A DNA stretch of 64,000 nt, taken from the NCBI RefSeq assembly GCF_016918765.2, contig NZ_CP092104.1, forward strand, positions 3,286,001-3,350,000, given 5' to 3'. Position 1 is the first letter of the stretch, and every line of letters begins with the position of its first letter. This DNA is from Flagellatimonas centrodinii. Its GTDB lineage: Bacteria; Pseudomonadota; Gammaproteobacteria; Nevskiales; Nevskiaceae. The notes beneath the pieces are model-generated. The model made no database searches. It was not told the origin of the DNA and worked only from the letters and a program-made list of their open reading frames with translations. Below, piece by piece: positions 8,486-21,826 of this stretch. Made by a program: the position numbers and the translations under genes.

Positions 8486-11400
8486 GTGACGATCCCGCTG
8501 TACGCCCTTGCCGCCGCCGAGCACGCGCTCGCGCATCCCAGCCTGACCGTCCTGGTCGCCGCCAACGAGCAGCAGGCCTACCGGCTCGAAGAGCATCTGC
8601 GATTCTTCCTGGCGGATCGCCATCCGCTGATTCACCTCGCCGATACCGAGGTGCTGCCCTACGACCCCTTCTCGCCGCATCAGGAGGTCCTGTCGCAGCG
8701 GCTGGCCGCATTGGCGGCGCTGGTGGACCGGCAGCCGGCCCTGCTGCTGGTCACCGCCGACAGCTGGCTGCAGCGACTGCCGCCAGCGGCCTGGCTGGGG
8801 GGGCGCCGGTTCGATCTTCGCGTGGGGGATCGTCTGGCGGTTGACCCGTTCCGGGCGCGGCTGGTGGCGGCCGGCTATGCCGCCGTTTCCGAGGTCCAGA
8901 CCCAGGGCGAGTTCGCCGTCCGCGGCGCCTTGATCGACCTGTTCCCGATGGGCTCGGAACAGGCCTTCCGCATCGACCTGTTCGACGAAGACATCGAGTC
9001 GATCCGCACCTTCGACCCGGAAACCCAGCGCAGCCAGGACAAGGTCGAGGCGATTCACCTGCTGCCGGCGCGTGAGTTCCCGAGCGACCGCGACGGTATC
9101 GACGGCTTCCGTCGCCGCTACCGCGAATATTTCCCCGGGGACCCGGCGCGCAGCCGCATCTACAGCGAGGTGAGCCAGGGTCAGATGCCGGGCGGCATCG
9201 AGGCCTACCTGCCGCTGTTCCACACGGACACTGCGAGCCTCGCCGACTATCTGCCCGACGATGCGCACCTGATGATGACGGCGCCGCTGGCCGAACAGCT
9301 GGAGCAGGACTGGCTGCAGATCCAGGATCGCTTCGAACGCTATTCCGGCGACCTGACACGGCCGCTGGTGCGCCCGGATGACCTGTACTTCCCCCCATCA
9401 GTGGCGCGTCGCGCGATGGCGGCATTCCAGTGGGTCGAACCCCCGACCGGGCTGGCGCCGCTGGTCGAACCGGCCGAGACGCTGATGACGCGGCTGGCGG
9501 ACAGTCCGCTGCGAACCCTGTTCGTGGCCGAATCCGCGGGACGTCGCGAAGCCCTGCTGGAGCGCCTGCGACGCCAGGGGCTGGTGCCCCGCGCGGTGGC
9601 CGACTGGCCTGCGTTCACGCAAGACCCCAGCCGCTTCGCCATCACCCTCGGGCCGGTGGACGAGGCGGTGACCCACCCCGAGGCGGGCTGGCGCGTGATC
9701 GGCGAGGCAGCGCTCACCGGACGGCCGCTGCCGGTGGTGCGCCGGGCGCGCGCCACCAAGGTGCGGGATCCCGACACCCTGCTACGGGATCTGTCCAGCC
9801 TGCACCTGGGCTCACCGGTGGTGCATGTCCAGCATGGCGTCGGCCGCTACGCCGGCCTCACCACGCTGGAGGCCGGCGGCGCGCTGGCGGAATATCTGGT
9901 GCTGGAATACGCCGGCGGCGACAAGGTGTATGTGCCGGTCGCCTCGCTCAACCTGATCCACCGCTACACCGGCAGTGAAGAGGACAAGGCGCCGCTGCAC
10001 AGCCTCGGCTCCGAGCGTTGGAAGAAGGCACGCGCCAAGGCACGCGAGAAAGCCCATGACGTCGCCGCCGAGCTGCTGCAGATCCAGGCCCGTCGTCTGG
10101 CCAAGCCGGGCGAGCCAATCGTCTGGGACGATGACGACTACCAGCGCTTTTGCGCCGGCTTTCCATTCGAGCCGACGCCGGACCAGCAGACCGCGATCGA
10201 AGCGGTGTTGGCGGATCTGGCCTCCGACAAGCCGATGGACCGGGTGGTTTGTGGCGACGTCGGCTTCGGCAAGACCGAAGTCGCGCTGCGCGCCGTCTTC
10301 GCCGCCGCCCGCGCCGGACGCCAGGTCTGCCTGCTGGCACCGACCACGCTGCTGGTCGAGCAACATGCCAAGAACTTTGCCGATCGCTTTGCCGACTGGC
10401 CGCTACGGGTGGCCGCGCTATCACGCATGCGTACCGGCAAGGAGCAGACCGCCCTGCTGAAGCAGCTGGAGGAGGGTTCTCTCGACGTGATCATCGGGAC
10501 CCACCGTCTGCTGCAGCCCGATATCCGCTTTCACAAGCTCGGCCTGGTGGTGGTCGATGAGGAGCACCGCTTCGGCGTCCGCCACAAGGAGACGCTCAAG
10601 AATCTGCGGGCCAACGTCGACCTGCTGACGCTGACCGCGACACCGATTCCGCGCACCCTCAACATGAGCCTGGCCGGCTTGCGCGATCTGTCGATCATCG
10701 CCACCCCGCCGGCCTCGCGCATCGCCATCAAGACCACCGTCGCAGAGTGGGACAACGCGCTGGTGGTGGAGGCCTGCCAGCGCGAGCTGCGTCGCGGCGG
10801 CCAGATCTACGTGCTGCACAACGAGGTCACCAGCATCGAGCGCTTCAGCGCCAATCTGCGCGAACTGGTGCCCGAGGCCCGTATCCGCGTCGCCCACGGC
10901 CAGATGCGCGAACGCGAGCTGGAGCAGGTGATGCTGGATTTCTACCACCAGCGTTTCAATGTTCTGGTGTGCACCACCATCATCGAGTCGGGCATCGACG
11001 TCCCCAGCGCCAACACCATCCTCATCGACCGCGCCGACAAGCTGGGGCTGGCACAGCTGCACCAGTTGCGGGGCCGGGTCGGCCGCAGCCACCACCGAGC
11101 CTATGCCTATCTGCTGGTCCCCAGCCTGCGCGGCCTCAGCGCCGACGCGCAGAAGCGCCTTGATGCCATCGAAAGTCTCGGCGATCTCGGCTCCGGCTTT
11201 GCCCTGGCCACTCACGACCTTGAGATCCGTGGTGCCGGTGAGCTGCTGGGCGACGATCAGTCCGGCCAGATCGAGGAGGTTGGCTTTACCCTTTATGCCG
11301 AATTGCTGGCGCGTGCGGTCAAGGCGATCCAGCGTGGCGCCCTTGACGACAGCCCCTTCGGCAGCAGCGAGTGTGAAGTCGACCTCGGAATCGCCGCGCT

Positions 11401-11827
11401 GATTCCCGACGACTATGTACCCGATATCGCCACCCGGTTGACCCTCTACAAGCGAATCAGCGAAGCCGAAAGTGCGGATATCCTGGCCGAGCTGAGGGTG
11501 GAAATGATCGACCGCTTCGGCTTGTTGCCGCCGCCGGCCGAGCGCCTGTTCGATCAAGCCAACCTGCGAATTGCGCTGGCCACCCGCGGCTTCCGACGGC
11601 TGCGAATCGGTGAGCGTTCGGCCACGCTTGATTTCGGGTCCGCGCCCCGCTTTGATCCGCTGCAACTGATCAAGCTGATACAGACCGATCCGCGGCGCTA
11701 TAAGCTTGAGGGCCAGAAGTGCCTGCACGTCTATCTCGATTTCGCCGAGCCGGCGACCCGCGCCGAACGCCTGATGCCGCTGTTCGACGCGCTGCCACCC
11801 GCTCCCCGTCCGGAGGCCCCCGCCTGA
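8486..11827 (+). CDS. mfd: Transcription-repair coupling factor
   Basis: A DNA translocase that removes RNA polymerase stalled at lesions and recruits UvrA. From the proposed GTG start it is 1113 residues, against about 1150 in E. coli. The N-terminal UvrB-like module contains LPYDPFSPHQE and GALIDLFPMGS. The RNA polymerase-interacting Tudor-like domain (VVHVQHGVGRYAGL) follows. The SF2 motor has Walker A GDVGFGKTE, a DEEH box in VVVDEEHRFG, and motif VI in QLRGRVGRS. The C-terminal D7 UvrA-binding region is present. No ATG occurs near the homologous N-terminus; GTG 8486-8488 is the best start, though an in-frame extension exists upstream. The stop shares one base with the next gene's ATG. 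Confidence 0.97.
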   Translation: MTIPLYALAAAEHALAHPSLTVLVAANEQQAYRLEEHLRFFLADRHPLIHLADTEVLPYDPFSPHQEVLSQRLAALAALVDRQPALLLVTADSWLQRLPPAAWLGGRRFDLRVGDRLAVDPFRARLVAAGYAAVSEVQTQGEFAVRGALIDLFPMGSEQAFRIDLFDEDIESIRTFDPETQRSQDKVEAIHLLPAREFPSDRDGIDGFRRRYREYFPGDPARSRIYSEVSQGQMPGGIEAYLPLFHTDTASLADYLPDDAHLMMTAPLAEQLEQDWLQIQDRFERYSGDLTRPLVRPDDLYFPPSVARRAMAAFQWVEPPTGLAPLVEPAETLMTRLADSPLRTLFVAESAGRREALLERLRRQGLVPRAVADWPAFTQDPSRFAITLGPVDEAVTHPEAGWRVIGEAALTGRPLPVVRRARATKVRDPDTLLRDLSSLHLGSPVVHVQHGVGRYAGLTTLEAGGALAEYLVLEYAGGDKVYVPVASLNLIHRYTGSEEDKAPLHSLGSERWKKARAKAREKAHDVAAELLQIQARRLAKPGEPIVWDDDDYQRFCAGFPFEPTPDQQTAIEAVLADLASDKPMDRVVCGDVGFGKTEVALRAVFAAARAGRQVCLLAPTTLLVEQHAKNFADRFADWPLRVAALSRMRTGKEQTALLKQLEEGSLDVIIGTHRLLQPDIRFHKLGLVVVDEEHRFGVRHKETLKNLRANVDLLTLTATPIPRTLNMSLAGLRDLSIIATPPASRIAIKTTVAEWDNALVVEACQRELRRGGQIYVLHNEVTSIERFSANLRELVPEARIRVAHGQMRERELEQVMLDFYHQRFNVLVCTTIIESGIDVPSANTILIDRADKLGLAQLHQLRGRVGRSHHRAYAYLLVPSLRGLSADAQKRLDAIESLGDLGSGFALATHDLEIRGAGELLGDDQSGQIEEVGFTLYAELLARAVKAIQRGALDDSPFGSSECEVDLGIAALIPDDYVPDIATRLTLYKRISEAESADILAELRVEMIDRFGLLPPPAERLFDQANLRIALATRGFRRLRIGERSATLDFGSAPRFDPLQLIKLIQTDPRRYKLEGQKCLHVYLDFAEPATRAERLMPLFDALPPAPRPEAPA

Positions 11828-12435
11828 TGTCCCGCATGCTGTTCTGCCTGATGCTTGTCCTGGCGTGGCCGGCACACGCCGAGACCCAACGTTACCGCGT
11901 CGACCTGATCGTCTTCATCGATCTGCGAACCCCCTCGGAGCCGGCCGACGCTGCGCGCATGCCGCCGCCAGACAGCGCCCTGTCGATCGACGATACTGCT
12001 ACGCTTGCCGCCAGCGGCATCACGGTGCTGGCGGACACGGCGTTCGGACTCGACACCGAGTGGGCGCGGTTGCGTAACTCACGCAATCTGCGCCCGCTGG
12101 CGCGCCTGGCCTGGATCCAGCAGGCGCCACCGGCGGATCGGGGGCCGCGACTGCGTTTGCGACAGGGTGAGCCGATGTCGGTGACGGTCGCCGACACCCT
12201 GCTGCCGGTGAGCCTGTCGTCACTCGAGGGCAGCGTGGCGTTGCGGCGCAGCCGCTTCCTGCACCTGGATGTCGACCTGCATTTCACCGAAGAACAGGTG
12301 GACGGCTGGCGCCAGTACCAACTCCGCGACACCCGACGCATGCGGCGCGACGAACTTCACTATCTCGACAGTCCCAAGCTCGGCGTACTGGCGCGCGTCA
12401 CGCAGGTCGACGAGCGGACGACGGACACCCCTTGA
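11827..12435 (+). CDS. CsiV-like (DUF2803) periplasmic peptidoglycan-binding protein
   Basis: A 202-residue exported protein. A clear signal peptide covers residues 1-18 (MSRMLFCLMLVLAWPAHA, cleavage after A-H-A). The mature part begins ETQRYRVDLIVFIDL and ends with a strand-rich region (RRSRFLHLDVDLHF, DTRRMRRDELHYLDSPKLGVL). This pattern, and the position immediately after mfd with a one-base TGATG overlap, match the CsiV family of gammaproteobacteria. In Vibrio cholerae CsiV activates the peptidoglycan synthase LpoA/PBP1A system. The assignment rests on remembered family pattern and gene order, not a search. It is convergent with the FecR/SPOR gene, which is also a predicted cell-wall protein. 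Confidence 0.65.
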   Translation: MSRMLFCLMLVLAWPAHAETQRYRVDLIVFIDLRTPSEPADAARMPPPDSALSIDDTATLAASGITVLADTAFGLDTEWARLRNSRNLRPLARLAWIQQAPPADRGPRLRLRQGEPMSVTVADTLLPVSLSSLEGSVALRRSRFLHLDVDLHFTEEQVDGWRQYQLRDTRRMRRDELHYLDSPKLGVLARVTQVDERTTDTP

Positions 12436-12450: not shown

Positions 12451-13455
12451 TCAGCGCAGGGTCTGGATCCAGGCGCTCTCGACCTCGGCCTCACGTGCCA
12501 GACGCGCGACCAGAGCCTTCGCCTCGCCCACCGCCATCAACCCGCTGAACTGCACCCGGAACCAGGTCTTGCCGGCAACATCTGCAGCGACGATGCGATG
12601 GCCCTGGAAGCCCCGTGACGTCAACGTCTCGCCAAAGGCGACCGCCAGCGGTCGTTTCGGAAATGACCCGGCATTCACCACCCAGCCCCGTGCCGGCGCA
12701 GGGGCCGCCACCGGCCCCCGAGCTACCCGCAAGGGCACCGTCGGGGTCCCGTTGATGGCGCGATTCATCGCGGCTGCGAATGAGGCCGAGCGGCTGGCCT
12801 CCGGCGCCTTGGTGGCCACCGGCAGCGGCACGCCACCCTGCAGTGAGACCGCCAGCCGTCGCAGCGCGGTTGCAGCCGTCAGGGTTTTCGGGGTGAAGGC
12901 CAGCGGCCGCGGCGGCTGTCCGATCTGCAGGCGGTGGCAGCTGCGTCCCGCTACCTCCTGGGGCGCCCGGCGACCCCGTACTGCGATCGCAGCACGGCCG
13001 GCAATGATGCAGAACAAGGCCTGGCCCTGGTGGGCCTCGACCAGATAGTCACCCTGGGCGAGATTAAGCCGAACGCCGCTGAGATCAACCACCACCGGCC
13101 ACGCCTGCCGTGACACGTCCGTTTGCCAGCGCAGCCGCAGATATCCCGACGCCAACGCCACCTGGGTCACCGCTTCGGGCGCGTCAGCCGACGGCAGGGC
13201 GAGCAACGACAACTCGGCGTCGCTCCCCAGTTCAAGATCGCCGACGCCGGCAAGACGAACATCGGCACGTCCGGTAGCGGCCGTGCGCACACGATCGCCC
13301 ACGACCAGCGTCGCACCATCAGCGAGTGCTACCGCTGGCCCCGAGCCACCCAGCCGCTGGATATCGTTTGCATCGCGCAGCGTCGCTGCGTGGCTGCTGA
13401 CCGCCACCAGACACAATGCAAGCCACCATCGCCGACTAGCCGCCGCCACCGCCAC
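12451..13455 (-). CDS. FecR-like and SPOR-domain periplasmic protein
   Basis: About 334 residues from GTG 13453-13455; the exact start is uncertain because other GTGs and a longer frame to 13515 exist. The chosen start gives a good signal peptide (RRWWLALCLVAVSSHA). Mature residues about 25-180 resemble the FecR beta-domain (GDRVRTAATGRADVRLAG ... LAQGDYLVEA ... IAGRAAIAVRG). The last 75 residues form a SPOR domain (WVVNAGSFPKRPLAVAFGE ... WFRVQFSGL), which in other proteins binds glycan strands lacking stem peptides at the septum. It overlaps the end of the upstream GGDEF/EAL gene by about 20 bases and ends the minus-strand operon. There is no TonB or sigma factor partner nearby, so a FecR signalling role is unlikely. 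Confidence 0.78.
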   Translation of the reverse strand: MAVAAASRRWWLALCLVAVSSHAATLRDANDIQRLGGSGPAVALADGATLVVGDRVRTAATGRADVRLAGVGDLELGSDAELSLLALPSADAPEAVTQVALASGYLRLRWQTDVSRQAWPVVVDLSGVRLNLAQGDYLVEAHQGQALFCIIAGRAAIAVRGRRAPQEVAGRSCHRLQIGQPPRPLAFTPKTLTAATALRRLAVSLQGGVPLPVATKAPEASRSASFAAAMNRAINGTPTVPLRVARGPVAAPAPARGWVVNAGSFPKRPLAVAFGETLTSRGFQGHRIVAADVAGKTWFRVQFSGLMAVGEAKALVARLAREAEVESAWIQTLR

Positions 13456-16321
13456 CGCCCTCACCCAGCAATTCGCTGAAGGGGCGACTTCGCGAAATCG
13501 CCCAGCCCTGCGCATAGTCCACCCCCATCGCGGCCAGCGTCTTCAACAGTTCCGGCTCTTCGACGTGCTCGGCAATGGTCTTCAACCCCATCTCGTGCCC
13601 GATGCGGTTGATCGCATCCACCATGCCGCGATCGACGCGACTCTGCAGCATCGAGCGGACAAAACTGCCATCGATCTTGATGAAGCTGACCGGCAGGTTG
13701 CGCAGGTAGGAGAACGACGCCATGCCGGCACCGAAGTCGTCAAGTGCAAACCGGCAGCCGACATCGGCCAGACGCTGGATGAATCGCCGTGCCTCACTGA
13801 GATGGGTGATCGCCGCCGTCTCGGTGATCTCGAAGCACAACTGTTCCGGCGCCACGCCATAGTGATCGAAGCGCGACAGCAGATACCCAACGAACTTCTC
13901 GTCGTTGACGGTCAGGCCCGAAAGATTGACCGCGTAGAGCACACCGTCGACCGGGCGCTGGGCAATCCCCGCCAGCGCCGCGTTGACGACCCAGCGGTCG
14001 AGCGCACCCATCAGAAAAAACCGCTCCGCCGCCGGGATAAACAGGTTCGGGGGCACCAGTTTCCCGGGGGTATCCTCATCACGCAGGCGTACCAGCAATT
14101 CGCGGTACACCACCTGCGTCGGCTCGCCACACCGCACCACGTCCTCGTAGTGCAGCTCGAACCGGTGGTGATCAAGGGCGCGGTTGATCCGCGCAACCAT
14201 GCCCATCTCGCCCTGCCGCCGTGAGAACTCGTCACTGACGCCAGCCACCCGCAGACGATCACGGCCGGCATCCTTGGCGGCGTAGCAGGCAGCATCCGCT
14301 TCCGACAACACTCTGGCGGCGCCGGCGGTATGCGCATCAATCGGCACCGCGCCGATGCTCAACGTCAGGCCATAGGCGCGACCCTCCCACTGAAAGCGGA
14401 ACTGCCGCGCGGCCTCCATGAGCCCCTCGACCAGACGCAGGGCCTCATCGGTTTCGAGGCCGTCGATGAGGATGCCGAACTCATCACCACCCAGGCGCGC
14501 GAGGGTATCCTGCGGCCGCAGTCGGCCGCGCAGCAGGCTGGCGAACTGACGCAACAGCTCATCACCCGCAAAGTGACCAAGGGTGTCGTTGATCACCTTG
14601 AATTGATCGAGATCCAGATACGCGAACAGGTGCCGCACCTGTTGCCGTCGTGCACCCAGCAAGGCGGTCGACAGGCGCCGCTCGAACTCGTCACGGTTGA
14701 CCAGGCCGGTCACCGGATCATGAGTGGAACGATAGGCCAGCTGTTCGGCCAGCAGGATCTGCTCGGTGGTATCGGCGATGACCACGATCGCACCCGCACC
14801 GGCTTCGTCGAGTGCCAGTGCATCCACACGGACACTGATCCGGCGGCCGTCGCGTGCAACCAGTGTGCAGTCTTCGCGACTCAGGGCCTGCGGCGTCGCT
14901 GACAGCACCGCCAGCAGCAGCTGGTCGACCGCCGTGCCGCCGGCATCCAGCAGCCGCAGTACCCGTTCATAAGGCTGTCCCAGTGCTTCGTCGCGCCGCC
15001 AACCGGTCAATCGTTCGGCGGCACCCGAGAATTCGACGATATGACCTTCGCCGTCGGTGGTGATCACCGCTTCCCGCAACAGCGCGCCGATCATGTTCAA
15101 CCGCCGCTGATTGGCGGTCAGGGCCGGGGCCCCGTCGGCCGCGGCTGGCTCGGGCCGCAACACCAGCAATGCGTCTGCCCCCAACGGGCGGGTACTGACC
15201 CGCACCGGCTTGAGGCCTGACACCGCACGCACCATCGCCTTCTTGTCGTCTTGTTCGCTGCCGACATCCGAAAACAGAGCATCGGGTTGCAGCCAGACCC
15301 GTGCGTCGCTGTTCACCAAATGGTCGAGGGGCCGATTGACCAGGCCGCTGAAGGCGGGGTTGGCCGTCACCACGCGACCCTCGCTGGTCACCACGACGGC
15401 GGGCTCCCGCAACACTGACAGCAGCGCCTCGGCGGCAGGGATCGCCGCCGGTTGGGGACTGTGCCGACGCTGGCGCCGTTCGACCCGACGAAACAGCACG
15501 GGCAAGGCGATATCGCGATCGTCCGGGTGAGCGGCAAACAGGTCGGGGTGTACCAGTGCGCGCTCGCGGGCGCCGACCAGCAAGTGGCCTTGCGGGTGCA
15601 GCGCGCCGTGCAACGCCTCCTGAACCTGACGCTGCATGGGCAGTGCAAGCCCTTCAAGGACGCTACGGCAGCTGATCAAATCGATCCCGTTAAGGGGCGG
15701 CGGCTCGACCACGTCGTGCAGCAAAAAACTGCAGCGTTCGAGCAACGCCGGCTGCAACGTGGCACCGCCGTCGGCGTCGGCCAGCAGCTGTGACCGCAGG
15801 TCCGACGGCACCGCGCGCAACTCCGACGCGGAAAGACGGCCACTGCGTGCAAGGGCCAGCGCCTCGGGATCAACATCGGATCCCAGCAGGCGCCAGCCGG
15901 CAGCGGCAGGACTGTCCTGGAGAACGTGCCCCATCAGCAGGGCCAGGGCGACAACTTCTTCCCCGGGGCCGCACCCGGGCACCCAGACCTGCGGTCGCGT
16001 GCAATCGGCAAACCATCGAGGTAGGGCGCGTGCGAGGGCAGCATGAAGTTCGGGGTCACGAAAGATCTGTGCTTGCGGTAACAGCAAATGCTGTGCCAGC
16101 AGTTGCAGTTCCTCAGGCTGCTGTGACAGCAGATCGGCATAGGCTGCAAGTGATTCCAGCGCCTGCCGCCGCAGACGCTTGTCGAGCCGACGCAGGACGC
16201 GGGTTCGCGGCAGGCTGGCGATCTCGACCGCCGTCTGTTCACTCAGCATCCGGTCGATACGCCGGAACGCGTCTGCGTCCTCGGGTGCCAGCTCTGTCTG
16301 CGAGGCCGAGGCCGGGCTCAT
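13436..16321 (-). CDS. CheR-like methyltransferase / PAS / PAS / GGDEF / EAL fusion protein
   Basis: A 961-residue cytoplasmic protein with five regions. Residues about 20-285 resemble CheR: FRDPELHAAL at 87-96, a SAM-type loop GCGPGEE at 116-122, DLISCRSVL at 214-222 and a final HPQGHLLVG. Two PAS-like domains follow at about 300-390 and 410-525. The GGDEF domain spans about 533-692, with GGDEF at 611-615 and an RxxD inhibitory site at 602-605. The EAL domain covers about 710-950, with ELL at 741-743, Asn799, DDFG at 861-864 and Lys882, so most catalytic residues are kept. It ends in seven glycines. The ATG overlaps the MTI phosphorylase stop by 4 bases. It probably makes or degrades c-di-GMP; whether the CheR part methylates anything is unknown. 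Confidence 0.9.
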   Translation of the reverse strand: MSPASASQTELAPEDADAFRRIDRMLSEQTAVEIASLPRTRVLRRLDKRLRRQALESLAAYADLLSQQPEELQLLAQHLLLPQAQIFRDPELHAALARALPRWFADCTRPQVWVPGCGPGEEVVALALLMGHVLQDSPAAAGWRLLGSDVDPEALALARSGRLSASELRAVPSDLRSQLLADADGGATLQPALLERCSFLLHDVVEPPPLNGIDLISCRSVLEGLALPMQRQVQEALHGALHPQGHLLVGARERALVHPDLFAAHPDDRDIALPVLFRRVERRQRRHSPQPAAIPAAEALLSVLREPAVVVTSEGRVVTANPAFSGLVNRPLDHLVNSDARVWLQPDALFSDVGSEQDDKKAMVRAVSGLKPVRVSTRPLGADALLVLRPEPAAADGAPALTANQRRLNMIGALLREAVITTDGEGHIVEFSGAAERLTGWRRDEALGQPYERVLRLLDAGGTAVDQLLLAVLSATPQALSREDCTLVARDGRRISVRVDALALDEAGAGAIVVIADTTEQILLAEQLAYRSTHDPVTGLVNRDEFERRLSTALLGARRQQVRHLFAYLDLDQFKVINDTLGHFAGDELLRQFASLLRGRLRPQDTLARLGGDEFGILIDGLETDEALRLVEGLMEAARQFRFQWEGRAYGLTLSIGAVPIDAHTAGAARVLSEADAACYAAKDAGRDRLRVAGVSDEFSRRQGEMGMVARINRALDHHRFELHYEDVVRCGEPTQVVYRELLVRLRDEDTPGKLVPPNLFIPAAERFFLMGALDRWVVNAALAGIAQRPVDGVLYAVNLSGLTVNDEKFVGYLLSRFDHYGVAPEQLCFEITETAAITHLSEARRFIQRLADVGCRFALDDFGAGMASFSYLRNLPVSFIKIDGSFVRSMLQSRVDRGMVDAINRIGHEMGLKTIAEHVEEPELLKTLAAMGVDYAQGWAISRSRPFSELLGEGGGGGGG

Positions 16322-17067
16322 GGCTGCCGCTGCAGCAGGTCGCCCAGCAGACGCCGCACCTGCGCCATCCCGGTCTCGATCGACTGGGCGATCTCGGCGT
16401 GAATATCACCCTCGCCCATCACTCCCGCTCCCCAGTTCACCGACACTGCCAGACAGGCGTAGGGCAGTCCGCGCTCACGCGCCAGAGCCGCTTCGGGCAT
16501 GCCGGTCATGCCGACCATGTCACAGCCGTCGCGGGCCATGCGGCGGATCTCGGCGGCGGTTTCCAGGCGCGGGCCCTGGGTCACCCCGAGCACGCCCTCG
16601 CCGGCCAACGCCACGCCACTGTGGCGGGCGCTGTCGCGCAGCGACTGGCGCAACGCGGCGTCATAGGGGGCAGTGAACTCCACATGGTCGAGCGACGCGC
16701 CGTCGCTGCCGTCGGCATAGCTGTGCGCCCGCCCCCAGGTGTAGTCAATCAGGTCCGCCGGCAGCGCCAGCGCCCCGGGGGGGAACCAGCGCGCGATACC
16801 ACCCACCGCAGCGATGGCCACCACGCCCCGCACCCCGAACTGCGCCAGGGCGGCGATGTTGGCGCGGTAGTTGATTGCATGTGGCGGCAACCGGTGGCCC
16901 TCGCCATGGCGCGCCAGGAACACCACCGGATGTCCCCCGATTTGGCCTTCCTGCAGCGGCGCCGACGGTAGCCCCCAGGGTGTCTCAAGGCGATGGTGGG
17001 CGACCGTGGTCAGCCCCGGCCATTGGTTCATGCCGGTGCCGCCGATGACCGCCAGCGGTGCCTTCAT
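16318..17067 (-). CDS. S-methyl-5'-thioinosine phosphorylase (MTAP/PNP family)
   Basis: A 249-residue member of the MTA phosphorylase / purine nucleoside phosphorylase family, with the phosphate loop IGGTGM at residues 8-13, HGEGHRLPPHAINYRAN at about 54-70, VTQGPRLET near 165 and GMTGMPEA near 188. In Pseudomonas the homologue next to nagZ (PA3004) phosphorolyses methylthioinosine to hypoxanthine and methylthioribose 1-phosphate. Methionine salvage there runs through deamination of methylthioadenosine. The neighbouring hpt gene would recycle the hypoxanthine to IMP. It overlaps hpt by 4 bases upstream and the GGDEF/EAL gene by 4 bases downstream. MTA phosphorylase is the alternative; the operon context favours the thioinosine enzyme. 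Confidence 0.87.
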   Translation of the reverse strand: MKAPLAVIGGTGMNQWPGLTTVAHHRLETPWGLPSAPLQEGQIGGHPVVFLARHGEGHRLPPHAINYRANIAALAQFGVRGVVAIAAVGGIARWFPPGALALPADLIDYTWGRAHSYADGSDGASLDHVEFTAPYDAALRQSLRDSARHSGVALAGEGVLGVTQGPRLETAAEIRRMARDGCDMVGMTGMPEAALARERGLPYACLAVSVNWGAGVMGEGDIHAEIAQSIETGMAQVRRLLGDLLQRQP

Positions 17068-17627
17068 GTCGATGCCCCTGCCAACCGGACGGCGTAGATG
17101 GCGGGGAGATGGCGCAGATATTCCTTGTAGTCCATGCCGCAGCCGAACACGTAGCGGTCGGGTACGGTGAGGCCGATGAATTCGGCCTTGACGCCGGGCG
17201 CCTTGCGCTTGTGCAGCTTTTCGGCCAGCACAACCGTCTTCAGACTGGCGGGCCGTTGACCGAGAATGGCAGACTGAATCGCAGCCAGGGTATGGCCTTC
17301 ATCGAGGATGTCGTCGATCACCAGCACATGACGGCCTTCCAATGGGGTACTCGGCTCCGCCTTCCACACCAGCCCTGCACCTACCGTCTCACCGCGGTAA
17401 CGGGTGGCATGCAGGTAATCCAGCTCGAAGGGGAAATTGAGTCGCTTGATCAACTCGGCGGTCGGCACCAGGCCACCGATCATGGTGCACAGCAATAGCG
17501 GATCGAGCTGCCCGTACTCGGCGCGCACGGCGCGGGCCAGACGATCGTAGGCGGCCCCGACAGCGGCAGCATCATGCAGACAGTCGGCGTTCTGCAACAC
17601 TGCCTGGGCTTCTTCATAGCGGCTCAT
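17064..17627 (-). CDS. hpt: Hypoxanthine-guanine phosphoribosyltransferase
   Basis: A 187-residue type I phosphoribosyltransferase. The PRPP-binding signature VLVIDDILDEGHTLAA lies near residues 101-116, with the phosphate loop region IGGLVPTAEL near 50-59 and the purine-contacting C-terminal part FGCGMDYKEYLRHLP. It converts hypoxanthine or guanine plus PRPP to IMP or GMP. The start is ATG 17625-17627, preceded by AAGGGAG at a good distance. A longer frame exists but has no homologous character. It overlaps nagZ and the MTI phosphorylase gene by 4 bases each, so translation is probably coupled. The neighbour directly supplies hypoxanthine. Confidence 0.93.
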   Translation of the reverse strand: MSRYEEAQAVLQNADCLHDAAAVGAAYDRLARAVRAEYGQLDPLLLCTMIGGLVPTAELIKRLNFPFELDYLHATRYRGETVGAGLVWKAEPSTPLEGRHVLVIDDILDEGHTLAAIQSAILGQRPASLKTVVLAEKLHKRKAPGVKAEFIGLTVPDRYVFGCGMDYKEYLRHLPAIYAVRLAGAST

Positions 17628-18604
17628 GACGAACTCCCTTGCGCGGGCCGGCGGTACAGCGTCTGCAGGCGGACGCTGGCGGTGGGGCGGGGTCGCACGT
17701 TGCGCAACGCGTCCACCAACCCAAGCGTAGCAGCCCGATCGTTGCACACCAGCAACATGTCCGACCCGGCATCAAGTGCCATCCGCGCGCGCGTTTCCAT
17801 GTCGCCGATGGCGGCCGCCCCGCCCATCGACAGATCGTCCGAAAACACCACGCCCTGAAAGCCGAGCTGCTTGCGCAGGATGTCCTTGATCCAGCGACGC
17901 GACAACGATGCCGGCGTCGGATCCACCGCGGTGTAGCGTACATGCGCGGTCATCAGTGACTCGATGCCGTCTTCGATCAATGCCCGGAACGGCATCAGCT
18001 CGGTACGCTCGATCTCCGCCAGCGACCGACGATCCACTGGCAGTTCGTGGTGGCTGTCGGCCGTCACTGCCCCATGTCCCGGGTAGTGTTTGCCGGTGGC
18101 GGCGAGGCCGGCGGCGTTGAGACCGCTGCGAAAGGCCCGGGCCAGTGCCACCAGGGTGTCGCGGTCATCGGCGAAAGCGCGGTCGCCGATCACACCGGAC
18201 ACGCCATGGTCGATATCCAGCACCGGGGCAAAGGGCAGATCAATACCGAAGGCGGCCAACTCGTCGCCGATGGTGCGCCCCACCGTGCGCGCCTCGTCCA
18301 ACGCCATCGGCGCCGACTCCTGATAGCGCTGCCCCAGGCTGCGCATCGCCGGTAGACGGCTGAAGCCGACGCGGAACCGCTGGATTCGCCCCCCTTCATG
18401 GTCCACCGCCACCAGCAACCGCGGCGACTTGATGCCGTGAATGTCGTCACAGAGGCGCTTCAGTTGCTCAGGATCGCGATAGTTGCGGGTAAACAGGATC
18501 ACCCCGCCGACCAACGGATGGGCCAGCAGCTCGCGGTCTTCGGGCGTCAATTCCAGCCCGCCGACATCAATCATCAGGGGGCCGATCAAGGGAGTGTCAG
18601 GCAT
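17624..18604 (-). CDS. nagZ: Beta-N-acetylhexosaminidase NagZ (GH3)
   Basis: A 326-residue cytoplasmic glycoside hydrolase family 3 enzyme. It removes GlcNAc from 1,6-anhydro-MurNAc peptides during cell-wall recycling. Visible motifs are VDHEGGRIQRFR near residue 70, KHYPGHGAVTADSHHELP (catalytic histidine loop, about 161-178) and VFSDDLSMGGA with the nucleophile aspartate near residue 249. No signal peptide is present, as expected. ATG 18602-18604 overlaps the upstream YkuD gene by 8 bases and the downstream hpt gene by 4. In bacteria with AmpR/AmpC systems NagZ products tune beta-lactamase induction; no ampR or ampC is seen in this window. Confidence 0.95.
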   Translation of the reverse strand: MPDTPLIGPLMIDVGGLELTPEDRELLAHPLVGGVILFTRNYRDPEQLKRLCDDIHGIKSPRLLVAVDHEGGRIQRFRVGFSRLPAMRSLGQRYQESAPMALDEARTVGRTIGDELAAFGIDLPFAPVLDIDHGVSGVIGDRAFADDRDTLVALARAFRSGLNAAGLAATGKHYPGHGAVTADSHHELPVDRRSLAEIERTELMPFRALIEDGIESLMTAHVRYTAVDPTPASLSRRWIKDILRKQLGFQGVVFSDDLSMGGAAAIGDMETRARMALDAGSDMLLVCNDRAATLGLVDALRNVRPRPTASVRLQTLYRRPAQGSSS

Positions 18605-19076
18605 GCAGGTAAACCGGCGTACCCGGCCGGATGCGGTCGTAGAGTTCAATGATGGCGTCATTCGCCACGCGGATGCAGCCCTTGGAGCCAGGCGTGCCGA
18701 GGGCGGTGACGGGCGGCGTACCGTGCAAATAGATGTAGCGACGAAATGTATCGACACAGCCCAGTCGATTGAAGCCCGGCTCGGTGCCCGACAACCAGAG
18801 GATACGGGTGAGGATCCAGTCGCGGCCCGGCTGCGCGGCGTGCGCTTCGGCGGTCCACAGCTCGCCGGTCCAGCGCCGACCGCGCAAGACGGCGTTCTCC
18901 GGCAGCCCGGCTCCGATCATCGCGCGCACCCGGTGCCGACCGCGCGGTGTACAACCGGAGCCATTGATCTCGCCGATGCCATTGGCACCGGTCGACACCG
19001 GCACCACCATCCGATCACGGCCGGCCTCGACCAGCCGCAACTGCTGGGCGCTGAGATCGATATCGATTTCAACCAC
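18597..19076 (-). CDS. YkuD-fold L,D-transpeptidase/L,D-carboxypeptidase without signal peptide
   Basis: A 159-residue YkuD domain with almost nothing else. The active site is complete: histidine in YIYLHGTPPVTALG and catalytic cysteine in SKGCIRVANDAI, about 25 residues from the C-terminus. Classical YkuD enzymes are exported and form 3-3 crosslinks or attach lipoprotein. Here the protein begins VVEIDIDLSAQQLRL, directly at the domain, with no signal peptide. GTG 19074-19076 is the likely start, with GGAG and AGGGA upstream; it overlaps the CYTH gene by 8 bases and nagZ by 8. A cytosolic YkuD enzyme acting as an L,D-carboxypeptidase in peptidoglycan recycling (ElsL of Acinetobacter baumannii) is known to me, and adjacency to nagZ suggests the same job. 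That function is inferred. Confidence 0.85.
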   Translation of the reverse strand: MVEIDIDLSAQQLRLVEAGRDRMVVPVSTGANGIGEINGSGCTPRGRHRVRAMIGAGLPENAVLRGRRWTGELWTAEAHAAQPGRDWILTRILWLSGTEPGFNRLGCVDTFRRYIYLHGTPPVTALGTPGSKGCIRVANDAIIELYDRIRPGTPVYLHA

Positions 19077-19554
19077 GTTCCCTGGGGCTCCACTGTGAAA
19101 AGGGGCGCAAGGCCAGTTGATGGTTGTAATACCGGGAGAGTTCGGTGACCTCCTGCCCCAGCCAGTCCGGCGTGATGATGGTTTGATCGACCGTTGCGAG
19201 CTCCACCTCTGCGACGACCAGGCCGTCGTTCTCGAGATGAAATTCGTCAATCTCCCAGGTCAGTCCGTCGCGCTCGATGAAGTGACGGGTCTTCTCGACC
19301 CGACCGACCGACAGGGTGTCGAGCATCTCCTGCGCATCCATCAGCGGCACCGGGTAGTCGAACTCGGCACGGGCTGCACCCACCACCGCCGCCTTGATGT
19401 TGAGGCGCGCATCGTCGCCCGCCACCCGCACGCGGATGGAGGTACGCCCCCCGGTGTCCACCAGATACCCCTGGGCCATCCGCCGCGACCGACCGACCTC
19501 GCTGCGCCAGGCATCAGAGCGAAGCAGGAATTTTCGTTCGATTTCTAGCGGCAT
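19069..19554 (-). CDS. CYTH domain protein (triphosphate tunnel metalloenzyme)
   Basis: A 161-residue single-domain CYTH protein. It opens with the hallmark E-x-E-x-K motif in LEIERKFLL (residues 3-11) and has alternating charged strands typical of the triphosphate tunnel (RTSIRVRV, LNIKAAVVG, TWEIDEFHLENDGLVVAEVEL). Members hydrolyse inorganic triphosphate, thiamine triphosphate or nucleoside triphosphates, or cyclise ATP, in the cytoplasm; the substrate cannot be told from sequence. ATG 19552-19554 begins a tightly overlapping run of genes. The upstream gene is rlmD, 65 bases away. In Pseudomonas relA follows rlmD at this place; here a CYTH gene does. Confidence 0.88.
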   Translation of the reverse strand: MPLEIERKFLLRSDAWRSEVGRSRRMAQGYLVDTGGRTSIRVRVAGDDARLNIKAAVVGAARAEFDYPVPLMDAQEMLDTLSVGRVEKTRHFIERDGLTWEIDEFHLENDGLVVAEVELATVDQTIITPDWLGQEVTELSRYYNHQLALRPFSQWSPRERG

Positions 19555-19619: not shown

Positions 19620-20939
19620 TCAGAGACGCTCGAACAAGGCCATCGATTCGACATGGGCGGTGTGCGGGAACATATCCATGACCCCGGCCCGGGTCAGACG
19701 ATACCCGTGATCACGAACCAGCGTGCCGGCATCGCGCGCCAGTGTGCCCGGATGGCAGGAAACGTAAACAATACTGCGCGGCTGTTTGGCGGCGATCAGC
19801 GGCATCATGGCTTCGGCACCACTCCGGGGCGGATCGAGCAGAACGCGATCAAAATCGCCGGCGAGCCAGTCAGCATCGGCCCCACTGGTGAACAGGTCGG
19901 CTTTCTCGAAGCGAACGGTCAGGCCGGCACGGGCAGCATTGTCACGGGCCCGTTGCACCAGTCCGGTGTCGCCCTCCACGGCCACCAATTCGACCCCATG
20001 TCGCGCCAGCGGCAGCGAAAAATTGCCGAGGCCGCAAAACAGTTCAAGGATACGCTCGCCGGCGCGCGGTGCCAGCCATTCGATGGCCTGATTGACCACC
20101 CGCTGGCTGATGAAGCCGTTGACCTGGATGAAATCGGCGGGCCGGAACTGCAGCCGCAGGTCAGACCCATCCGGCGAGTAGTCCAGAACCTGCGCCGGCG
20201 GCGTCAGTGGCGTAATGCTGTCGAGCCCGCCCGGCTGCAGCCGGATTTCCAGACCGGTATCCAGCGCCAGCTGCCGCAGGATCGCGAGGTCCTCCTCGCT
20301 CGGCGGCGCCAGCACCCGCACGGCAAGACAAACGTGGTCAGCGGCAGCCATCTCGATTTGCGGAATGCGGTCGGCAATGCTCATGCGCGCAAAGGCATCG
20401 GCCAGCACCCGCAGGCGCTCGCCGACCCGGGGATCGAGCACCGGGCAGGACTGCAATTGGGCCAGAAAGTGGCTGCGGCGCTCGCGGAACCCCACCAGCA
20501 CTCCCCCCTTTTTCGGGACCTTCTTGACGCCGATGCGGGCGCGTCGCCGGTAGCCCCAGACCGGGCCGGTAATGGGGGGCGCCACGGCCTCCGGCGTGAC
20601 CTGGCCGATACGCGCCAGGGCATCGAGCATCTGTTTCTGCTTGAAGCGGATCTGCGCCTCGGGCGCCAGGTGCTGCAGGGCACAGCCGCCACAGAGACCG
20701 AAATGGGCACAGCCGGGTTCGACCCGATCTGGACTGGCAACCTCCACCGCGACCGTCTGCCCCTCGTCGGCAGCGCGCCCGGTATCGACATAGCGAAAGC
20801 GCACCCGTTCACCGGGGAGGCTGTCGGCAATGAAGACCACCTTGCCGTCGAGCCGTGCTACCCCCCGACCGTCTTCCGCCAAATCCACCACCTCGGCAAG
20901 GAATTCACCCTCGGGCGGGCGCCGATTGCGACGCCTCAT
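19620..20939 (-). CDS. rlmD: 23S rRNA (uracil-1939-C5) methyltransferase RlmD
   Basis: A 439-residue RlmD/RumA. An N-terminal TRAM domain (residues about 10-70) is followed by cysteines in GCAHFGLCGGCALQH plus a later SCPVLD, which ligate the 4Fe-4S cluster. The SAM-dependent methyltransferase domain has ILELFCGLGNFSLPLA, DPPRSGA and the catalytic cysteine region VYVSCHPGTLARD. It methylates U1939 of 23S rRNA. ATG 20937-20939 overlaps the cysM stop by 4 bases. cysM-rlmD order matches Pseudomonas, where relA follows; that gene is not here. Confidence 0.95.
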   Translation of the reverse strand: MRRRNRRPPEGEFLAEVVDLAEDGRGVARLDGKVVFIADSLPGERVRFRYVDTGRAADEGQTVAVEVASPDRVEPGCAHFGLCGGCALQHLAPEAQIRFKQKQMLDALARIGQVTPEAVAPPITGPVWGYRRRARIGVKKVPKKGGVLVGFRERRSHFLAQLQSCPVLDPRVGERLRVLADAFARMSIADRIPQIEMAAADHVCLAVRVLAPPSEEDLAILRQLALDTGLEIRLQPGGLDSITPLTPPAQVLDYSPDGSDLRLQFRPADFIQVNGFISQRVVNQAIEWLAPRAGERILELFCGLGNFSLPLARHGVELVAVEGDTGLVQRARDNAARAGLTVRFEKADLFTSGADADWLAGDFDRVLLDPPRSGAEAMMPLIAAKQPRSIVYVSCHPGTLARDAGTLVRDHGYRLTRAGVMDMFPHTAHVESMALFERL

Positions 20940-21826
20940 GCCGGAAACAGACCGGTGGAGATGTAGCGATCCCCCCGGTCGCAGGCGATCGACACAATGG
21001 TTGCGCCCTGCACACGCTGGCACAGCTGCAAGGCGGCCCACATGGCACCGCCCGACGATGGCCCGCAGAACAGCCCCTCGATCGAGGCCATCTCGCGCAT
21101 CACCCGTTCAGCATCGGCCGTGGCGACCTCGATGACCTCATCGACCCGCGGCCGCTCAAAGATGCGCGGCAGGTAGGCCTCCGGCCATTTGCGGATACCG
21201 GGAATGGATGACTCGCCATCGGGCTGAACACCGACGATACGAATATCAGGGTTCCGCTCCTTCAGGTAGCGCGAACAGCCCATGATGGTGCCCGTTGTCC
21301 CCATGCTGGAAACAAAATGCGTGATCGAGCCCCCTGTGGCCTCCCAGATTTCCGGTGCTGTGCCCTCGTAGTGCGCGCGCGGGTTGTCCGGGTTGGCGAA
21401 CTGGTTGAGCACCCGCCCACGACCTTCGGCTGCCATCCGGTCGGCGAGGTCACGTGCGCCTTCCATGCCCTCTGCCTGGCTGACCAGCACGATCTCGGCG
21501 CCAAACGCCCGCATGGTCGCCCGGCGCTCCGCGCTCATGTGTGCCGGCATCACCAGCACCATGCGGTAACCCAGCACGGCCGCCGCCATCGCCAGGGCGA
21601 TACCGGTATTTCCCGAGGTCGCCTCGATCAGGGTGTCGCCGGGATGGATCTCGCCGCGCTCCTGCGCGCGCCGGATCATCGAGTAGGCCGGCCGGTCCTT
21701 GACCGAGCCCGCGGGGTTGTTGCCTTCCAGCTTGGCGAACAGGCGGTTGTCGCCAATTCCGGGCAGCCGTGTGAGTTCAACAAGGGGGGTGTTGCCGATG
21801 GTGTCAGCAAGCGTCATGGTGTGCAT
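20936..21826 (-). CDS. cysM: Cysteine synthase B
   Basis: A 296-residue fold-type II PLP enzyme that makes cysteine from O-acetylserine and sulfide or thiosulfate. The Schiff-base lysine is in NNPAGSVKDRPA near residue 43, the substrate loop is EATSGNTGIA, and GPEIW/THFVSSMGTTGT and CDRGDRY are as in E. coli CysM rather than CysK. Two ATGs are possible (21826 and 21817, three codons apart); the first is used here. It overlaps rlmD by 4 bases and is divergent from the GacS-like kinase gene, 48 bases away. Gene order matches Pseudomonas gacS-cysM-rlmD. Confidence 0.95.
   Translation of the reverse strand: MHTMTLADTIGNTPLVELTRLPGIGDNRLFAKLEGNNPAGSVKDRPAYSMIRRAQERGEIHPGDTLIEATSGNTGIALAMAAAVLGYRMVLVMPAHMSAERRATMRAFGAEIVLVSQAEGMEGARDLADRMAAEGRGRVLNQFANPDNPRAHYEGTAPEIWEATGGSITHFVSSMGTTGTIMGCSRYLKERNPDIRIVGVQPDGESSIPGIRKWPEAYLPRIFERPRVDEVIEVATADAERVMREMASIEGLFCGPSSGGAMWAALQLCQRVQGATIVSIACDRGDRYISTGLFPA

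Follow-up and report, generated by a model that had tools for sequence, protein, structure and literature searches.

The mfd-csiV-mtiP-nagZ arrangement, known from Pseudomonas, is a gammaproteobacterial neighbourhood, and it is partly recognizable in the genome considered here (3.6 Mb, with its best named matches in the Nevskiales). In the window, by which is meant the whole 64,000-nucleotide stretch of DNA that was analysed, mtiP, csiV and mfd are adjacent and convergent and nagZ is close by, as in Pseudomonas and in a Thalassolituus locus (L112), but nagZ and mtiP have hpt between them, nagZ is preceded by cyth and ykuD, and a c-di-GMP gene and a FecR-SPOR gene occupy the slot after mtiP (Table 1). 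Enzymes related to several of those encoded here have been described in other bacteria: ElsL of Acinetobacter baumannii is a demonstrated cytosolic recycling L,D-carboxypeptidase of the YkuD family (PMC8649774), a CYTH-family enzyme of Nitrosomonas europaea is a specific inorganic triphosphatase (PMC3440374), and P. aeruginosa deaminates methylthioadenosine (MTA) to methylthioinosine (MTI), from which hypoxanthine is then released (reviewed in PMC6302742). A literature search turned up no description of a nagZ-hpt cluster and none of CheR-GGDEF-EAL proteins; the cluster is apparently undescribed, but an ordinary housekeeping one.

Table 1. Genes of the cluster and its convergent neighbours, with window coordinates and the profile matches on which the names rest.
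Gene or product	Coordinates	Strand	Evidence and remarks
cysM, cysteine synthase B	20936..21826	-	NCBIfam NF008735, 502.9 bits, above cut-off
rlmD, 23S rRNA U1939 methyltransferase	19620..20939	-	NF009639, 515.1 bits, above cut-off
CYTH protein (triphosphate tunnel enzyme)	19069..19554	-	PF01928, 48.8 bits, above Pfam cut-off
YkuD-domain protein	18597..19076	-	PF03734, 82.2 bits, above Pfam cut-off
nagZ, beta-N-acetylhexosaminidase, muropeptide recycling	17624..18604	-	NF003740, 421.9 bits against a cut-off of 207
hpt, hypoxanthine-guanine phosphoribosyltransferase	17064..17627	-	NF006605, 242.1 bits, above cut-off
mtiP, S-methyl-5'-thioinosine phosphorylase	16318..17067	-	NF006599, 325.5 bits against a cut-off of 223
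CheR(decayed)-PAS-GGDEF-EAL protein, cytosolic	13436..16321	-	domains above Pfam cut-offs
FecR-like + SPOR protein, exported	12451..13464	-	PF05036, 28.4 bits; FecR, 21.6 bits
csiV, convergent, bounds the slot	11827..12435	+	PF10972, 90.8 bits
mfd, convergent neighbour	8486..11827	+	position shared by most relatives with a contig long enough to include it

The first-pass annotation had described seven genes, from the CYTH gene to the FecR-SPOR gene (12451-19554), overlapping one another with no gap, and their coordinates and overlaps were borne out, all seven lying on the minus strand. The CYTH and ykuD genes overlap by 8 bp (ykuD starting with a GTG at 19076), as do ykuD and nagZ; the nagZ/hpt, hpt/mtiP and mtiP/c-di-GMP gene junctions are each 4 bp overlaps, and the c-di-GMP and FecR-SPOR genes overlap by 29 or 20 bp, depending on whether the latter starts with the GTG at 13464 or that at 13455. 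The gene and domain names proposed held as well, NagZ, Hpt and MTIP scoring above NCBIfam cut-offs, the CYTH, YkuD and CheR-PAS-GGDEF-EAL domains and SPOR above Pfam cut-offs, and FecR just below its own. Co-translation of the seven genes is plausible. The unit probably begins earlier than the CYTH gene, at cysM-rlmD, because cysM and rlmD overlap by 4 bp and the terminator scan revealed no terminator-like site in the 65 bp between the end of rlmD and the CYTH gene; the latter follows rlmD at 5-30 bp in many relatives. The promoter scan found no sigma-70-like promoter, and the c-di-GMP gene contains two weak internal terminator-like sites, fewer than in shuffled sequences. Judging from the gene layout, core and tail probably form one co-translated transcript.

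The conservation of this arrangement was assessed in 58 loci around mtiP from relatives and in 80 named loci. Across them, the block reads cysM-rlmD-cyth-ykuD-nagZ-hpt-mtiP-slot, bounded by a divergent barA-like kinase gene upstream of cysM and by csiV and mfd at the other end; it is kept throughout the Nevskiales and in part beyond, with pieces found in the Arhodomonas, Thiohalobacter and Lysobacter (L084, L088 and L107) and Thalassolituus loci. Counting testable relatives in which a gene precedes mtiP in the same orientation, hpt is present in 57/57, nagZ in 56/56, rlmD in 50/53, cyth in 47/54 and ykuD in 44/56; cyth, ykuD, nagZ and hpt occur jointly in 37/58, and cysM precedes rlmD in nearly every relative. 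The full set of seven genes is found in 4/58 relatives (both congeners, G016 and G029). The combination is, thus, not confined to this strain, and the expectation that all seven would be conserved together holds for those four relatives and for the first five genes, which belong to the old core, but not for the last two, which lie in a variable slot. It is likely that the core, cysM-rlmD-cyth-ykuD-nagZ-hpt-mtiP, is an old, conserved housekeeping cluster with a variable slot between it and csiV-mfd, and that the slot genes share its transcript, not its pathway. The tight overlaps could nevertheless mean a stronger functional linkage than is credited here.

Other open reading frames were noticed by eye within the block. 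A conserved DEDD-type 3'-5' exonuclease-like frame separates cysM from rlmD in many relatives (L047:5428-6207, L033:5326-6114 and L050:5309-6082, for example) and is absent from the window's genus. A frame resembling an MscS-type channel lies between nagZ and hpt in several relatives from the order (L149:8453-9583, minus strand; L163, L104 and L148), and some Nevskia-like genomes have a 3.3 kb insert between hpt and mtiP, which in L127 (2436-4310, minus strand) encodes a CHASE2-like protein.

Two neighbouring core genes point to muropeptide recycling. The YkuD protein matches the ElsL model NF040925 nearly end to end, has the catalytic cysteine motif SKGCIR and has no hydrophobic N-terminus or export signal. 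It is probably an ElsL-type L,D-carboxypeptidase, and is described as ElsL-type rather than filed as ElsL because its score (163.1 bits) is below the exception cut-off of the model (270). With ElsL of A. baumannii it shares a cytosolic YkuD domain, the near full-length match, the SKGCIR motif and a genome without LdcA; it differs in its score below the cut-off, in an activity that is predicted only and in the position of its gene next to nagZ. NagZ (PDB 5g1m, E 1e-90) likewise has no N-terminus resembling an export signal, as befits a cytosolic GH3 enzyme, and mpl is present elsewhere in the genome (617.9 bits). The YkuD protein would trim tetrapeptide muropeptides in the cytosol, and NagZ would remove GlcNAc from the same imported fragments. 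A profile search for LdcA (S66, PF02016) found none in the window's genome or its family; among the relatives searched, LdcA is present in one genus only, in which all four genomes without ykuD carry LdcA and three have both. This pattern fits replacement of one enzyme by the other, although the sample is small and comes from a single genus (Fisher p = 0.19 for that genus, and 0.02 overall, uncorrected for kinship). An enzyme of this kind is not indispensable, since eight family members have neither ykuD nor LdcA.

The purine genes form a second pair. MtiP (PDB 3ozb, E 5e-72) is likely to be an MTI phosphorylase which, with Hpt, would serve hypoxanthine salvage. A member of the MTA deaminase family (NF006549, 680.9 bits) is encoded elsewhere in the genome (G000:C1:3180833), which is consistent with a preference of MtiP for MTI over MTA. 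As in the route of P. aeruginosa, both MTIP and MTA-deaminase-type members score above their cut-offs; here, by contrast, hpt overlaps mtiP, and hypoxanthine capture is encoded beside hypoxanthine release. The deaminase would produce MTI from MTA, MtiP would cleave it to methylthioribose-1-phosphate and hypoxanthine, and Hpt would convert the released hypoxanthine to IMP.

The themes proposed in the first-pass annotation (wall recycling, purine salvage and nucleotide signalling) were mostly right, except that the CYTH protein had been counted as signalling. Its N-terminus (MPLEIERKF) contains EIERK, which fits the ExExK motif, and its closest solved structures are 3typ and 2fbl (hypothetical protein NE1496). 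An adenylate cyclase assignment was set aside because these structures are of a Nitrosomonas-type protein, and the enzyme is probably an inorganic triphosphatase, which would hydrolyse inorganic triphosphate.

The slot after mtiP is empty in some relatives; in others it is occupied by a GGDEF-EAL protein, by a FecR-SPOR protein, by the two together or by different genes. In two loci (L058:11067-16655 and L060:7819-12477) it contains a Calx-beta repeat protein of 1500-1900 aa with an alpha/beta-hydrolase domain, and a 705-aa frame in the slot of L040 had no family match and may be spurious. The PAS-GGDEF-EAL region of the window's protein, used as a query, found matches of at least 48% identity in 21/60 relatives, 16 of them directly after mtiP (one inverted) and the others at different places or on separate contigs. 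The c-di-GMP protein has long occupied the slot. In the window's protein GGDEF is intact, with RxxD upstream, and the EAL residues E741, N799, E831, D861, D862, K882, E918 and Q938 are invariant in seven orthologs. The CheR motifs, in contrast to the canonical GC(A/S)TGEE and CRNxLIYF, read GCGPGEE and CRSVLEGL, and the orthologs also deviate in one or both.

The slot protein of G038, G045 and G048, members of another family, has a length of about 1750 aa, and that of G038 (L149; similar lengths in L156 and L159) is a CheB-CheR-PAS-GGDEF-EAL hybrid with canonical CheR motifs (GCATGEE and CRNLLIYF). The window's protein occupies the same position and is 48% identical to this hybrid over PAS-GGDEF-EAL and 29% over CheR, but has no CheB, no middle PAS/GAF region and none of the canonical CheR motifs. 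L117, L046 and L115 have PAS-GGDEF-EAL only, and the G016-type protein, read from its sister locus L117, is a 666-aa PAS-GGDEF-EAL protein without CheR. The simplest reading of these domain comparisons is that N-terminal domains would have been lost step by step at this position, starting from the CheB-CheR-PAS-GGDEF-EAL form. The slot gene would encode a c-di-GMP synthase/phosphodiesterase that is cytosolic, regulated by its PAS domain and descended from a larger hybrid.

The FecR-SPOR protein begins with a hydrophobic, signal-peptide-like segment, the only such segment that it has, and an alignment of its orthologs (excluding the out-of-frame row L054) shows that they start with a stretch resembling an export signal and continue with a middle domain, a linker rich in proline and a SPOR domain. 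A structural model with a mean pLDDT of 77 supports a FecR-like fold: it resembles the cell-surface signalling domain of PupR (E 9e-5) and, more weakly, SPOR domains, that of RlpA among them (TM-score 0.78 normalised by the target, E 0.05). The exported protein would probably bind septal peptidoglycan. Contact between it and the c-di-GMP protein is not evident, because a clear membrane segment is lacking in the latter and the former has no more than its export signal.

The two slot genes may, alternatively, form a module of their own, in which c-di-GMP turnover is tied to an exported peptidoglycan-binding protein. This is a possible but rather unlikely reading: the pair is found again, overlapping by 4 bp, in L113, L034, L056, L048 and L061, and both gene families reappear in the slot across the family, but each gene also occupies the slot without the other, about 60 bp separate them in L117 and, as neither protein has a clear membrane segment, a partner would be missing. 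Much less probable is a dedicated seven-gene system coupling c-di-GMP signalling to wall recycling and purine salvage, the joint system that the first-pass annotation had suggested and for which nothing was found in support; it was not adopted as the main reading, since the final two genes belong to the variable slot. All seven genes do overlap and are together in three congeneric genomes and again in two more family members, and a c-di-GMP ortholog lies beside mtiP in two families; however, only 4/58 relatives have the full set, most have the core without the last two genes, FecR-SPOR occurs without the c-di-GMP gene in L067, L072 and L043, and no membrane segment joins the cytosolic and exported parts. 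A variant in which the decayed CheR would bind a SAM-related molecule, the SAM/MTA status (mtiP-hpt) would set c-di-GMP and FecR-SPOR would report the state of the septal wall is highly speculative and still less probable. Mere operon packing, the chance adjacency of genes in a GC-rich compact genome, may practically be dismissed: compact genomes often have 4 bp overlaps, but the core order recurs across the Nevskiales, partly in Arhodomonas, Thiohalobacter and Lysobacter, and is conserved in distant relatives among the 58 loci. The overlaps and order are more than chance, because the same seven genes overlap in both congeners (by 11, 8, 4, 4, 4 and 4 bp) and the core order is kept throughout the Nevskiales.

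With the old housekeeping core and its variable slot as the preferred reading, a combined signalling system is unproven, and the pairing of the c-di-GMP gene with FecR-SPOR and the ElsL-type enzyme in the place of LdcA are side points open to testing. The occurrence of an ElsL-type enzyme next to nagZ across an order mostly without LdcA speaks for this class as the standard recycling carboxypeptidase in that order, and mtiP and hpt are linked as a two-step hypoxanthine salvage unit. The slot, finally, suggests a chemotaxis-type c-di-GMP protein that has shed domains in place during evolution.
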